Assembly (NCBI GenBank): GCA_937922815.1
Contig: CALAJP010000144.1
Location: forward strand, 1 to 34,224
Direction: 5' to 3'
Origin: an uncultured Saprospiraceae bacterium
GTDB lineage: Bacteria; Bacteroidota; Bacteroidia; Chitinophagales; Saprospiraceae
DNA length: 34,224 nucleotides
Shown here: one piece after another, positions 21,657-26,297 of the stretch
Layout of the letters: the number at the start of each line of letters is the position of its first letter
Numbering within the stretch: the stretch's first letter is position 1
Made by a program: the position numbers and the translations under genes
Notes under the pieces: model-generated
Databases searched by the model: none
What the model saw: the letters and a program-made list of their open reading frames with translations, nothing else
Told to the model about the DNA's origin: nothing

Positions 21657-21687
21657 TTGAAAAAGTACGCTAAATATATTATCTTTG
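21657..21687 (+). promoter_or_regulatory. Promoter of the metal module, ending at the start codon
   Basis: TTG (21657-21659) and TATCTTTG (21680-21687) are 20 bases apart, a full match to the Bacteroidota consensus. Transcription should start about 4-6 bases after the -7 box, at 21691-21693, which is the ATG itself (21693). The mRNA would be leaderless or nearly so. The -33 box also rules out the alternative TTG start of the frame at 21657. Confidence 0.7.
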
Positions 21688-21692
21688 GGAGT

Positions 21693-22133
21693 ATGAAAAT
21701 TAATCGATTCAAAAATATAGGTATCTATCTGATAGTAGCCTTGATGTTGTTGTCATCGGCTAACCTTACCATTGATTTTCATTTTTGTCAAAGCCATATT
21801 AAGTCCATCAGTTTAATTGGCAAAGCAAAATCTTGTTTTGAAACGAAATCTTCGTGCAGTAAAGCAGCTTCATCTTGTGCTTTCAAAAGCAAAGAAGAGC
21901 ACAAAGGTTGTTGTCAAAACAAGTCTCTACAAATTGATGCAGATGATGATTTTAATAAAATATCATTCGAATCTAATTCTTTAGACCACCATCAAAGTTC
22001 TTTATTAATTAAGTCTTTCAATTTAGTTCTTCATAATCCAATCGATTATGTTTCTGAATTTGTGAAGCTACAAATTATCCCTCCTTTATTGAATCAAGAA
22101 CTCATTATTCTGATTCAATCCTTCCTTTTATAG
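21693..22133 (+). CDS. HYC_CC_PP family Cys-rich envelope protein
   Basis: The 146-residue product starts with a signal or anchor helix (residues 7-24). It then has the family's landmarks: 'DFHFCQSHIKSISLIGKAKSC' (His30-Phe31-Cys32, where most have HYC; Cys48), an extra Cys cluster (Cys50s-60s in 'SSCSKAASSC'), Cys73-Cys74 in 'KGCCQN', and a Pro-Pro pair at 130-131. The family is named after these motifs; its biochemistry is not known, but Cys and His placement suggests metal binding, and it often lies near heavy-metal genes. It is first in a plus-strand operon with the barrel, tandem-HMA and NHL genes. The start is the ATG at 21693, not the TTG at 21657. Confidence 0.82.
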   Translation: MKINRFKNIGIYLIVALMLLSSANLTIDFHFCQSHIKSISLIGKAKSCFETKSSCSKAASSCAFKSKEEHKGCCQNKSLQIDADDDFNKISFESNSLDHHQSSLLIKSFNLVLHNPIDYVSEFVKLQIIPPLLNQELIILIQSFLL

Positions 22134-22161
22134 CCATAAGTCAGTCTTTTTTTACTTACTA

Positions 22162-22198
22162 ATTCTTGTGTAGTGCAAGAATATTTATTCTATTTTTA
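22162..22198 (+). terminator. Hairpin between the HYC_CC_PP and barrel genes (possible attenuator)
   Basis: The arms ATTCTTG (22162-22168) and CAAGAAT (22176-22182) enclose a 7-base loop; the sequence after is T-rich but broken (ends TATTTTT). It may lower expression of the three downstream genes. Weak by terminator standards. Confidence 0.35.
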
Positions 22199-22212
22199 AA
22201 TTAATAAGACTT

Positions 22213-22989
22213 ATGGATCAACATAATAAGTGGGTTATTATTTTAGTAATCCTCCTGTCCTGTGAATGGCTTTCAGCCCAAGGACCTCCTATTTTGGGTG
22301 ATAAACCCATCATGTTAGGTGGTAAATCCGTTATCATTAAAACCTTAACAGAAGTTAGGAATACCAACGAAGGAACTTTCGTCAAAGCCCCTTTAATGGT
22401 TCATTATCTGCCGACATCCAATACTTTAGTGAGCGTTCACGTTCCGTTTACCAATTATAAATTCAATAATGGGTTGGAAGGAAGTGGTTTGGGCGATATT
22501 GAAATTATGGCTAAATATCAGTTTTTTCGAAAAGACAAGATGGGAAAAACATTCCGAATCGTTGCTAAAACCTTGCAAACCTTACCCACAGGAAAAGACC
22601 TACGGCTGGAAGGAATTCAAACCAAACAATACCAATCTTATTTGGGTGTGGTAGCTGGTTATGAAACCATAAAATACGGCATTTCTAATGAGTTAGGTTA
22701 CAATATTGGTTTCGATGAAGATTATAATGAATTTCGTCACAAACTTAGTTTTGGGTTGCCATTATTAAAACCAACATATCCCGTAAACCAAATTAATCTA
22801 TATTTCGAATATCAAAACAGTTGGTTTCCCGAAACGAATAATTTTGCCATTCTTTATGGTCAAGGTATTCAATATGCCAAAGGACGATTCACCATAGAAA
22901 TGGCTGTTCAAGCTCCATTGATTCAAAATTTAGCCGAAGAAAAAGAACGTAAATACAGTTTGTTCTTTGGTAGTCGTTATGTTTTTTAG
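22213..22989 (+). CDS. Outer-membrane beta-barrel (phenol-degradation MetA/alpha-amylase-like putative porin)
   Basis: The 258-residue protein has a signal peptide (residues 1-22, ending WLSAQ). The remainder alternates hydrophobic and polar residues, as in barrel strands ('LMVHYLPTSNTLVSVHVPF', 'SYLGVVAGYETIKYGISNELGYNIGF'), and ends 'YSLFFGSRYVF' with the C-terminal Phe that directs barrel assembly. 'GLGDIEIMAKYQFFR' near residues 94-108 resembles the strand motif 'GlgDl.l..ky.f' of the PF13557 family. Its place between HYC_CC_PP and HMA genes suggests a metal-related pore or outer-membrane component. It does not overlap its upstream neighbour and is 22 bp ahead of the next gene's start. 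Confidence 0.78.
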   Translation: MDQHNKWVIILVILLSCEWLSAQGPPILGDKPIMLGGKSVIIKTLTEVRNTNEGTFVKAPLMVHYLPTSNTLVSVHVPFTNYKFNNGLEGSGLGDIEIMAKYQFFRKDKMGKTFRIVAKTLQTLPTGKDLRLEGIQTKQYQSYLGVVAGYETIKYGISNELGYNIGFDEDYNEFRHKLSFGLPLLKPTYPVNQINLYFEYQNSWFPETNNFAILYGQGIQYAKGRFTIEMAVQAPLIQNLAEEKERKYSLFFGSRYVF

Positions 22990-23011
22990 AAAATTTATAA
23001 ATCAAAATATC

Positions 23012-23641
23012 ATGAAAAATATCATTTTAATAATTTCATTATTCACCTCATTCCTATTTTCAAATTCAATAAATGCTCAGTCTAAAGATATGGATAATTT
23101 TACCGTTCGTGTAGATGGATTGGGTTGTCCTTTTTGTGCTTATGGATTAGAAAAAAAATTCAAAGAATTGAAAGGAATTAAGAAAGTCACCATAGACATG
23201 GAAACGGGAATTATGAATTTCAAATTTCCTACTGCTGACGTTCTAAGTATTGAAACTATCGAAGAACAAGTAGAAAAAGCAGGTTATACGCCTGTTTCTG
23301 TAAAAATCACAAGAGCTGACGGAAAAGAAGAGAATTCTGAAACTCAAAAAACAATCGTTAACAACGAAAGTATTCTCAAAGATGCGACTTTCCCCGTTGG
23401 TGGAAATTGCGATATGTGTAAAGCTCGAATAGAAAAAGCGGCTTTGGGTACCTTGGGAGTTACAAAAGCAAATTGGGATAAAGAATCAGAGGTTTTATCA
23501 ATTAGTTATGACGAAAATCAAACGAATCCTACCAGTGTAGAGATTGCAGTGGCTAAATCGGGACATGACACCAAAAACAACAAAGCCAAAAATTCTACCT
23601 ACGAGGACTTACCTGCTTGTTGTTTGTATCGTGATAATTAA
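23012..23641 (+). CDS. Secreted tandem heavy-metal-associated (HMA) domain protein
   Basis: The 209-residue product (start at the ATG at 23012, after the preceding stop; the frame runs open to 22967) has a signal peptide (residues 1-23, ending NAQ). Two HMA domains follow. The first (about 29-100) has Cys39 and Cys42 in GLGCPFCAYG; the second (about 123-190) has Cys133 and Cys136 in GNCDMCKARIE. A CxxC of this type binds Cu(I), Zn(II) or Hg(II). The tail 'YEDLPACCLYRDN' adds Cys203-Cys204, a possible third thiolate site. It probably is a periplasmic metal chaperone or scavenger. Both domain types exist as separate proteins in Bacteroidota, so this looks like a fusion. Confidence 0.9.
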   Translation: MKNIILIISLFTSFLFSNSINAQSKDMDNFTVRVDGLGCPFCAYGLEKKFKELKGIKKVTIDMETGIMNFKFPTADVLSIETIEEQVEKAGYTPVSVKITRADGKEENSETQKTIVNNESILKDATFPVGGNCDMCKARIEKAALGTLGVTKANWDKESEVLSISYDENQTNPTSVEIAVAKSGHDTKNNKAKNSTYEDLPACCLYRDN

Positions 23642-23662
23642 ATTCCAACTAAAAAAATTAAA

Positions 23663-24469
23663 ATGAAAAATATATTAATATTAGGTTTCATAACCTTATT
23701 ATTTTCTGCCTGCGAAAAACCCATGCAATGGCAAGCCGTAAAACAGTTAGATTTGGGCAGCATCACCCCCATAGGAATTGCTCCATCTGAAAAAGGACTT
23801 TGGTTAGCCGATGGTGACCACAATCAAGTCATTGAAATAGATTTTGAAGGAAATGTTCTTCAAAAAATAGATAGTCTTGAACGTCCTATGCACATTTCTT
23901 ATCATGACAACACACTTTATATTCCCGAATATGGTTCGGATAATATTTTAAAAATTAATGATGGACAAAAAACGACTTTATCTATTTCCGACAGTTTAGA
24001 TGCTCCCGCAGGAGTTGATATATCAGGCGATGAAATAGTAATTGCTGATTTTTACAAACATCGAGTATTGTTTTATGATGGTAAAGAATGGAAAAGTATT
24101 GGTAAAAAAGGCAAAGCCAATGGGGAATTTCACTACCCTACCGATGTTCAACTTTTTAATGATAAAATAATCGTTGCCGATGCTTACAACCATCGAGTTC
24201 AAATATTCGATAAATCAGGCAGCCACCTAACTACGGTCGGGCATTTAGAAGGCATGAATGCTGCTACGGGAATTTTTGTTACTGATAAACAAATCTATAC
24301 CACTGATTTTGAAAACAATAGAGTTCTTATTTTTGATTGGGAAGGAAATGTAATGCAAACTCTCACTGAAAATATTCAAAAACCGACAGATATACTTGTT
24401 CATGAAAACAACCTTTATGTAATTAATTATAAAGGAAAAAGCATGAATGTTTATAAGGTATTAAAATAA
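23663..24469 (+). CDS. NHL-repeat beta-propeller lipoprotein
   Basis: The 268-residue protein has a lipoprotein signal (TLLFSAC, Cys17). The mature part is built from about five or six NHL blades, such as 'IVIADFYKHRVLFYD', 'IIVADAYNHRVQIFDKSG' and 'IYTTDFENNRVLIFDWEGN', with the repeated (A/T)D-x-x-x-(H/N)R-V pattern. Such propellers bind ligands or proteins and rarely are enzymes. It is last in the metal module, 21 bp after the HMA gene, and a clean terminator follows. A link to metal binding is by context only; no Cys or His cluster is seen in it. Confidence 0.85.
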   Translation: MKNILILGFITLLFSACEKPMQWQAVKQLDLGSITPIGIAPSEKGLWLADGDHNQVIEIDFEGNVLQKIDSLERPMHISYHDNTLYIPEYGSDNILKINDGQKTTLSISDSLDAPAGVDISGDEIVIADFYKHRVLFYDGKEWKSIGKKGKANGEFHYPTDVQLFNDKIIVADAYNHRVQIFDKSGSHLTTVGHLEGMNAATGIFVTDKQIYTTDFENNRVLIFDWEGNVMQTLTENIQKPTDILVHENNLYVINYKGKSMNVYKVLK

Positions 24470-24572: not shown

Positions 24573-24588
24573 TATGATTTAGGTCATA
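24573..24588 (+). promoter_or_regulatory. FNR/CRP-family activator site of the NO module
   Basis: TATGA-N6-TCATA is a perfect inverted repeat and includes TGAT-TTAG-GTCA, 8 of 10 positions of the TTGAT-N4-GTCAA/ATCAA type sites of FNR, DNR and NnrR regulators. It is centred at 24580.5, about 42 bp ahead of the transcription start predicted from the -7 box at 24611-24618. This is the class II activator position (-41.5). No TTTG -33 element is present where it would be needed. Confidence 0.62.
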
Positions 24589-24610
24589 AATAGATGGCTC
24601 TTTAATCCTC

Positions 24611-24618
24611 TAATTTTG
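24611..24618 (+). promoter_or_regulatory. -7 box (TAATTTTG) of the HPP-flavohemoglobin operon
   Basis: A perfect TAnnTTTG match, 19 bp before the ATG at 24638, with predicted transcription start near 24622. The -33 position (about 24588-24592) is A/T without TTG, which suits an activator-dependent promoter. Confidence 0.62.
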
Positions 24619-24637
24619 TTGTATAAAAAGTCATATA

Positions 24638-25123
24638 ATGAATGATTTATTAAATAATCTAATGAACTGTGTATTTGCAATTGTTTGTTTTAATTCTATT
24701 TATTGGGTTCATAAATACTTTTTAAATCTCGAAGAAAGTGTAATAATTATAGCTGCATTTGGAGCTGCTGCTGTGCTTGCATTTTCAAGAGAATCCAGTA
24801 AATTTTCTTTATTAGAAATGCTTACGACAGGAATGTTCACTGCGTTTATGGGGGTGTTTTTTGAATCTTTAGAATTAGCATTTTACTATCAAATTTCATT
24901 CACTATCGGAATGTGTATTTTGGTATTAAATTCAATTCTTGCCACTTACCCTCCTGCTGGTGCAATAGCGATTATCCCTTTAATATCTAATACTGAGATT
25001 CAAGATTTAGGTTACTTATTTATCATTTGTCCAACTATGACTGGATTAATTCTAATTTATTCATTTTCAAAGTTAAAAGAAAAAATAAACGTGTTATATC
25101 ATGACAAAAAAAGAAGTAATTGA
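24638..25123 (+). CDS. HPP-family integral membrane protein
   Basis: The 161-residue protein has about four to five membrane helices and the HPP-family (PF04982) outline: 'IIIAAFGAAAVLAFSRESSKFS' near residues 36-57 corresponds to the 'iasfGAsAvL.F' block, and 'ILATYPPAGAIAIIPL' near 100-115 to the block that names the family. Here the His-Pro-Pro is Tyr104-Pro105-Pro106. HPP proteins in chloroplasts and cyanobacteria have been linked to nitrite transport. Its last 23 bp overlap the flavohemoglobin gene, and both are behind one FNR-type promoter, so it probably moves nitrite, nitrate or a related anion during NO stress. The transport role is inferred. Confidence 0.8.
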   Translation: MNDLLNNLMNCVFAIVCFNSIYWVHKYFLNLEESVIIIAAFGAAAVLAFSRESSKFSLLEMLTTGMFTAFMGVFFESLELAFYYQISFTIGMCILVLNSILATYPPAGAIAIIPLISNTEIQDLGYLFIICPTMTGLILIYSFSKLKEKINVLYHDKKRSN

Positions 25124-26297
25124 AATCGTAAAAGCAACGGCACCTGTTTTACAAAATCATGGAGAATCCATAACTAAGGTTTTTTACAAAAGGTTATTTG
25201 AGAATCATCCCGACTTAAAGGATATTTTCAATATGGTTCATCAAAAAAAAGGTAGTCAACAAAAAGTATTAGCCAATACAATTTTCCAATATGCTGTACA
25301 TATTGACAAATTAGAAATGTTAACTAGAACCGTCGAAACTATTGCACAAAAACATTCAAGTCTTTCAATTCCAAAGGAGGCTTACCCTATCGTTGGCGAA
25401 AACCTAATGGAAGCCATAAAAGATATTTTAGGAGAGGCAGCTACACCTGATATTGTGGAAGCATGGACTATAGCTTATGGTGATTTAGCCGCTATTTTTA
25501 TTCATAAAGAAGAAAAAATATATGGCGATAATGAATCTTCTTCTAACGGTTTCAGAGGAACTAAAGAGTTTGTTATAACAAAGAAAGTAAACGAAAGTGA
25601 TGTAATTACTTCATTCTATTTAAAAAGGAAAGATGGAAAACCAACACCTCATTTTATTGGTGGTCAATACATTGCAGTAACTATTGAGATTCCAAATACA
25701 TCACATAAACATACTCGAAATTATAGTCTTTCTAATTCGAAAAATGATGGTTTTTATAGAATCAGTATAAAGAAAGAAGCAGGAAACCCTGACGGAATTG
25801 TTTCTAATTACTTCCATTCTAATTTGAAAGTTGGGGATACAGTAGTAGCAGGTATGCCTGCTGGAGACTTTACATTAAATAGAAAAGGCGAAAAACCCAT
25901 AGTATTAATAAGTGGTGGAGTTGGAATCACTCCTTTATTGAGTATTTGTAAAGATGCCATTAATAGTAAAAGAGATGTCACTTTTATTCAGTGTGCACTG
26001 AATAGCAATACCGTTGCATTTTCAGAGGAAATTGAAGAAATGCTTGATAATCCTTCAAAATTAAAGAAAATATTTAGCTTGCCTTTAGATACTGATAAAA
26101 TAGGTGATGAATATGATTATAAAGGTTTTTTATCACTCGATATGCTTCTTGACCAAGGCTTAGACAAAGAAAGTGAATTTTATTTTTGCGGGCCAACTCC
26201 ATTTATGGCAAACACGTTAAGAATATTAAATACTTGGGGCGTTAAGAATCAAAATATCTATTATGAATTCTTTGGACCTAAAGAAAATTTGGTATAA
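25101..26297 (+). CDS. hmp: Flavohemoglobin, nitric oxide dioxygenase
   Basis: The 398-residue protein oxidises NO with O2 to nitrate, using NAD(P)H through FAD and haem. All three modules are present. The globin domain (1-140) has Tyr29 (distal B10), Gln53, the haem ligand His85 in 'AQKHSS', and Tyr95, at the same numbers as in Escherichia coli Hmp. The FAD domain (about 155-262) has RNYSLS (206-211), and the NAD domain (about 265-398) has GGVGITP (272-278) and FCGPTPFM (362-369). The motif 'FNMVHQKKGSQQK' matches Hmp closely. It overlaps the HPP gene by 23 bp and is followed by a strong terminator. It acts in the cytoplasm. Confidence 0.97.
   Translation: MTKKEVIEIVKATAPVLQNHGESITKVFYKRLFENHPDLKDIFNMVHQKKGSQQKVLANTIFQYAVHIDKLEMLTRTVETIAQKHSSLSIPKEAYPIVGENLMEAIKDILGEAATPDIVEAWTIAYGDLAAIFIHKEEKIYGDNESSSNGFRGTKEFVITKKVNESDVITSFYLKRKDGKPTPHFIGGQYIAVTIEIPNTSHKHTRNYSLSNSKNDGFYRISIKKEAGNPDGIVSNYFHSNLKVGDTVVAGMPAGDFTLNRKGEKPIVLISGGVGITPLLSICKDAINSKRDVTFIQCALNSNTVAFSEEIEEMLDNPSKLKKIFSLPLDTDKIGDEYDYKGFLSLDMLLDQGLDKESEFYFCGPTPFMANTLRILNTWGVKNQNIYYEFFGPKENLV

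Follow-up and report, generated by a model that had tools for sequence, protein, structure and literature searches.

The question raised by this locus is why a gene for a small membrane protein of the HPP family should overlap hmp, the gene for a flavohemoglobin, and what might switch the two on together. The window, i.e. the whole stretch of 34,224 nucleotides analysed here, comes from an uncultured Saprospiraceae bacterium, and the following features were placed in it:

24573..24588 (centre 24580.5), no strand assigned: proposed activator site, the palindrome TATGA-N6-TCATA, here TATGATTTAGGTCATA; proposed from the sequence, a second exact copy and conservation before HPP-hmp in relatives
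24611..24618, + strand: -7 box TAATTTTG, of the Bacteroidota type TAnnTTTG, 22 bp past the palindrome and with no TTG as -33 box
24622..24623, + strand: predicted transcription start, placed by the convention that it lies 4-5 nt past the -7 box
24638..25123, + strand: HPP-family membrane protein of 161 aa (PF04982, 4e-18), with Tyr-Pro-Pro in place of His-Pro-Pro
25101..25123, + strand: 23-bp overlap of the HPP and hmp reading frames, from their coordinates; overlaps also occur in five relatives
25101..26297, + strand: hmp, flavohemoglobin (NO dioxygenase) of 398 aa, above the cut-off of NCBIfam NF009805 and aligned with solved flavohemoglobins

The hmp product combines a globin, an FAD-binding and an NAD-binding domain in one chain, passes the curated Hmp cut-off (478.7 vs. 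432 bits for the NO-inducible flavohemoprotein model NF009805) and can be aligned over its whole length with the solved flavohemoglobins 3ozu, 1cqx and 1gvh; the heme-pocket residues of E. coli Hmp are matched in this alignment. The HPP protein is a member of its Pfam family (65.9 bits against a gathering cut-off of 27.2 in the profile search) but a motif variant, since the His-Pro-Pro motif itself is absent. A two-row AlphaFold model of it reached a pLDDT of 37.6, too low to be of use, and no solved relative was returned by profile search. The 23-bp overlap that a preliminary description of this DNA had claimed is indeed there, with hmp intact, and suggests that translation of the two genes may be coupled. 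Further upstream on the same strand (21657-24469) lie genes for a HYC_CC_PP family protein, a 258-aa protein, a protein with two heavy-metal-associated domains and an NHL-repeat protein, a group that looks like a metal-handling cluster.

Promoter geometry, a second copy of the site and a candidate regulator

The preliminary description had read the region ahead of HPP as a class II promoter, in which a perfect TATGA-N6-TCATA repeat stands about 42 bp before the predicted start and the normal -33 box is missing, and these claims hold up. The palindrome centre falls at about -41.5 to -42.5 relative to the predicted start, and the triplets 19, 20 and 21 nt ahead of the -7 box are AAT, AAA and TAA, none of them TTG. 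Judged by its sequence, the promoter thus has the geometry of class II activation, with a site near -41.5, a core box and no upstream box. Across the genome the bare palindrome is not clearly enriched (17 sites against 13 for the reversed control and about 9.6 expected); of the exact 16-mer TATGATTTAGGTCATA there are two copies against an expectation of 0.007, and of the composite of palindrome and -7 box likewise two against 0.03, the expected counts being derived from the window's own dinucleotide make-up. Two composite sites with a single mismatch were found, on contigs C123 and C172. When up to three mismatches were allowed, the 16-mer showed no surplus (38/54 against 48/61 for the reversed control) and the composite stayed close to its control (110/93 against 84/96), and weaker sites are therefore indistinguishable from background.

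The second exact 16-mer (G000:C150:48578-48593) stands 22 bp from a TACCTTTG box, which is the spacing of the window's promoter, and is flanked by a gene for a 195-aa regulator of the CRP/FNR type and, on the opposite side, by a membrane-like ORF of 114 aa that has no Pfam match and, after it, a gene for a truncated globin (Bac_globin). The only two strong composite sites of this genome both precede globin-family genes. The 195-aa protein contains no cysteine, so that an iron-sulfur FNR, as the label FNR-type in the preliminary description might imply, is rejected, and what stands of that label is the FNR/DNR-like character of the site. Among solved structures the regulator matches two chains named 'cyclic nucleotide-binding protein' best (1.1e-15), followed by DNR (1.9e-13), CRP (from 9e-11) and an FNR-type regulator (1e-7), and it combines a CRP/FNR fold with the lack of iron-sulfur cysteines that is expected of the DNR type. 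It reached no regulator cut-off in NCBIfam, the best model being CRP with 64 vs. 266 bits. By these comparisons DNR appears to be the nearer model than iron-sulfur FNR, and binding of the regulator to the palindrome is what we would predict from the arrangement. The genome holds one other HTH_Crp_2 gene, on C14, which is a less likely candidate, as the Glu in the recognition helix of the C150 regulator is replaced by Gln in its product and only a 16-mer with three mismatches was found nearby (C14:18884).

The site and the regulator in relatives

The preliminary description had named absence of the inverted repeat from related genomes as a ground for giving up its reading, but the repeat was found both before HPP-hmp and before relatives of the regulator. 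With the C150 regulator as query, 136 of 199 genomes in the window's family gave matches at E<=1e-10, mostly distant, and in the five closest (G033, G014, G150, G058 and G122; 48-63% identity) the palindrome invariably lies between the regulator and a divergent homologue of the 114-aa ORF, with a globin alongside in two of the five by BLAST, as in the window's genome. This ORF is accordingly found divergent from the regulator in six family genomes (L013:1575-1919; homologues L108-L112), and we regard it as a candidate for a new nitrosative-stress protein. When the regulator was aligned with 18 relatives, a recognition helix G-L-x-x-E-T-(V/T)-I was common to all 19 sequences, while the number of cysteines in the other members ranged from 0 to 5. 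A fully symmetric TATGA-N6-TCATA was found close upstream of eight of the 19 and was not found upstream of the other 11, one of which had 14 bp of upstream sequence. In several cases the palindrome is adjacent to, or in contact with, the start codon of the regulator gene (L013:1496-1516, L207:2187-2202, L209:782-797), which suggests that the regulator represses its own gene while activating the divergent one; with the site between a few and some tens of bases away from that codon, the regulator probably limits its own expression.

The combination of palindrome and -7 box is furthermore not peculiar to one genome. We assembled 13 promoters, the window's own plus 12 to which protein searches had led, a set that excludes the hmp loci L142 and L143, which have no such site, and the distant regulator loci, which mostly are without a symmetric one. 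All 13 have the palindrome, which is exact in 11 and carries one TGTGA half in two, and an exact TAnnTTTG follows 21 or 22 bp downstream in 11, the boxes of L207 and L110 having one mismatch. The chance of an exact box at either offset is about 0.0017, and TTG is absent from the positions 19-21 bp ahead of the -7 box in all 13. In a sample of 395 genomes of the class, 149 composite promoters were counted, spread over 90 genomes, against six matches to the reversed control; the spacing is 21 bp in 122 of the 149 and 22 bp in 27.

What follows these class promoters was annotated at 29 loci (L144-L172; six without a placed downstream ORF, two with a tiny one, and the hand-picked L173-L192 not counted). 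The preliminary description had suggested looking for the site ahead of hmp, norB and nirK. Of N-oxide or respiratory genes, the composite precedes cytochrome c with NosZ (L156, L157), DUF2249-RIC (L160, and L161 which was judged alike without a domain scan), NapC/NirT with cytochrome c nitrite reductase (L171), cbb3 subunit I (L168), cytochrome c (L170) and NADH dehydrogenase chain 3 (L144), and a cytochrome c with a COX1-family subunit at L166 is read as a putative NorCB. However, the same promoter also stands before unlinked genes for HGD-D, rhodanese, a histidine kinase, a xanthine-dehydrogenase-like protein, a beta-eliminating lyase, fasciclin, Hsp20, a YgaP-like protein, a response regulator and a TonB receptor, and it is therefore a general class II architecture rather than one specific to NO, probably used by several CRP/FNR paralogues.

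HPP-hmp pairs and the branch of HPP that they carry

The pairing of HPP with hmp, which the preliminary description had expected to recur in related genomes, does so in one family but not in the window's own. At E<=1e-60 hmp is present in four of the 199 genomes of the window's family, the window's included, and HPP was not found in the other 198 at E<=1e-5. One of the three remaining hmp genes (G126, 56% identity) has the regulator and the site directly ahead of it and no HPP, and the two others (G057 and G151, 34-35%) have neither site nor HPP, but a gene that looks Rrf2-like. HPP is thus not obligatory for hmp. In the phylum sample some HPP occurs in 52 of 395 genomes. Among 40 HPP loci that were inspected, BLAST for hmp at ten (L098-L107) showed it to neighbour HPP in just two, those of G284 and G505, both uncultured Tenacibaculum sp., and hmp was not seen at the other 30, which were read by eye. 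A scan of named genomes with strict peptide patterns returned the same two Tenacibaculum loci only, and HPP had no match on plasmids.

We took the family of these two genomes to be the Flavobacteriaceae, and in a sample of 349 of its genomes six contain hmp at E<=1e-60, in all six cases with HPP directly upstream. Five of these pairs are intact, with overlaps of 11, 11, 22, 23 and 22 bp. In the sixth (G505, L099) the promoter is intact, but the HPP frame stops after 97 aa and hmp is split into two pieces, of 154 and 229 aa. Three of the six loci have a divergent regulator gene on the far side of the palindrome, its product being 38-42% identical to the C150 protein, and in two of these three one half-site reads TGTGA. 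Both Tenacibaculum genomes also have a further composite promoter, which stands ahead of a 114-aa ORF and has a globin-like gene and the regulator gene next to it, an arrangement reminiscent of the two targets in the window's genome; BLAST showed no link between this 114-aa ORF and the one of the window's genome, and the globin-like gene was recognised by BLAST only, with no Pfam or NCBIfam match at 1e-5.

In a tree of 20 HPPs the six intact hmp-linked proteins form one clade with a support of 100/100, but since four of them were gathered through hmp, the tree does not show that the clade is always linked to it. The Tyr-Pro-Pro version of the motif, to which the preliminary description had drawn attention, is real and present in all six, whereas 13 of the 14 other HPPs have His-Pro-Pro and the last (L107) has neither. 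The canonical HPPs have a recurrent neighbour of their own: at 17 of 30 loci (L068-L097) an adjacent ORF codes for about 425-443 aa and starts similarly. At L069, the one locus where this ORF was tested, it proved to be a CLC anion channel, which hints at anions, although these HPPs belong to the other branch. A DUF2249 gene lies near HPP at L101:1317-4113, and a hemerythrin-domain gene beside it at L107:3112-4112.

Proposed function, alternatives and known systems

We propose that HPP and hmp form a coupled nitric-oxide defence operon under a DNR-like regulator with HPP as an anion exit, a reading to which, taken as a whole, we assign a probability of about 0.5. The cysteine-free CRP/FNR regulator, encoded on C150 and beside the operon in some relatives, would bind TATGA-N6-TCATA at about -41.5 and, once bound, replace the missing -33 contact and thereby activate RNA polymerase at the TAnnTTTG -7 box; very likely it would also drive the divergent membrane ORF and the truncated globin. 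This module of promoter and regulator, as deduced from sequence, is the part that we hold to be highly probable, and that NO is the signal is likewise probable, if with less assurance. Hmp, which makes nitrate from NO and O2 (consulted part of PMC6950321), would do so here, and the membrane protein HPP most likely serves as its partner, releasing the product anion, nitrate or nitrite, and so preventing a build-up of trapped anion. Since NO comes in as a gas whereas nitrate carries a charge, a co-translated membrane protein from a family in which nitrite transport activity is known would make a sensible exit, but substrate and direction are deduced and this part is offered tentatively. More tentative still is the general form of the proposal, in which the Tyr-Pro-Pro branch would be a dedicated, co-translated exit for nitrate made by Hmp, under a DNR-like regulator of the Bacteroidia whose class II architecture (TATGA-N6-TCATA with TAnnTTTG at 21-22 bp) also serves part of the N-oxide and respiratory genes of the class.

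The role of HPP is open to two other readings. It may be another kind of membrane partner of Hmp, i.e. a docking, heme, electron or NO-handling protein or a membrane-protection factor, and the strict pairing and the overlap would fit any such role, as would the loss of His from the motif in the hmp-linked clade and the occurrence of other HPPs near DUF2249 or hemerythrin-domain proteins, whose roles are not anion transport. This reading is nonetheless doubtful, given the CLC channel among the 17 similar ORFs at canonical HPP loci and the nitrite transport activity of cyanobacterial and plastid relatives of HPP, for which PMC7438415 and PMC4137279, in the parts available, cite Maeda 2014. The same transport data, as far as these sources go, lend some weight to HPP as an importer of nitrite or nitrate that shares the operon by accident and feeds assimilation or respiration, since the plant and cyanobacterial protein takes up nitrite; that the characterised members, which have His-Pro-Pro, carry nitrite inward indeed counts against our exit model. 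We find an importer rather improbable, however, for the partner is an NO oxidase and not a nitrite or nitrate reductase in seven of seven pairs, and no such reductase was recognised in their flanks when these were read by eye.

As to the signal, the regulator might sense low oxygen or another redox or carbon cue, with the operon as part of a general anaerobic CRP/FNR response. That the promoter type precedes cbb3 oxidase subunit I, nitrite reductase, Hsp20, a TonB receptor and others in the class speaks for this, as does a metatranscriptome study from 2021, which in the part consulted (PMC8510549) placed CRP/FNR homologues of Flavobacteriales and Saprospiraceae only loosely, near a carbon regulator. 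But several paralogues may share the motif, the C150 regulator has no cysteine for an iron-sulfur cluster, and in this genome the strong composite sites are confined to globin-family genes, and we consider such a cue unlikely in comparison with NO. Finally, the palindrome could be a product of chance and the neighbourhood accidental, as the bare repeat is barely commoner than its control in this genome; this explanation deserves almost no weight in view of the exact 16-mer repeated at the exact spacing, the pairing with HPP in all six hmp genomes of another family and the excess of composites in the class.

The HPP-hmp pair was not recognised in the published literature searched, a search that most subscription papers fell outside, and the word HPP does not appear in the consulted part of a comparative study of N-oxide regulons (PMC1274295), where the predicted HcpR2 regulons of most Bacteroides species consist of hcp only, with no hmp. 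New here, as far as the examined parts of the N-oxide and CRP/FNR papers go, are the distinct partner clade of a known enzyme and the promoter rule. Flavohemoglobins are uncommon in Bacteroidota (PMC6950321, in part), and hmp is rare in our samples (6/349 and 4/199 genomes), and every sampled hmp of the Tenacibaculum family comes with HPP, so that what HPP does can be tested within a single operon. That activator site and -7 box stand a fixed distance apart furthermore provides a rule by which activator-dependent promoters may be read, in a phylum where the assignment of CRP/FNR regulons is poor, at least in the consulted part of PMC8510549.

In comparison with known systems, the enzyme is the familiar one, a three-domain flavohemoglobin above the NCBIfam cut-off and alignable with solved Hmp from end to end, but in the regulons described it is usually controlled by NsrR or NorR (PMC1274295, part consulted), whereas the window's hmp has a site of the CRP/FNR type and a putatively co-translated HPP gene. 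HPP shares the family PF04982 with the cyanobacterial and plastid nitrite transporter NITR2, but differs from canonical HPPs in forming a separate clade, in its Tyr-Pro-Pro, in its linkage to hmp and in its length of about 160 aa, the ten canonical Bacteroidota HPPs of the tree having about 180-207 aa. The putative regulon, lastly, has in common with those of DNR, NnrR and FNR the CRP/FNR fold, the core TGA-N6-TCA as in TTGAT-N4-ATCAA, the class II position and some N-oxide targets, and is set apart from them by the half-site TATGA and by a Bacteroidota -7 box at a fixed distance of 21-22 bp.
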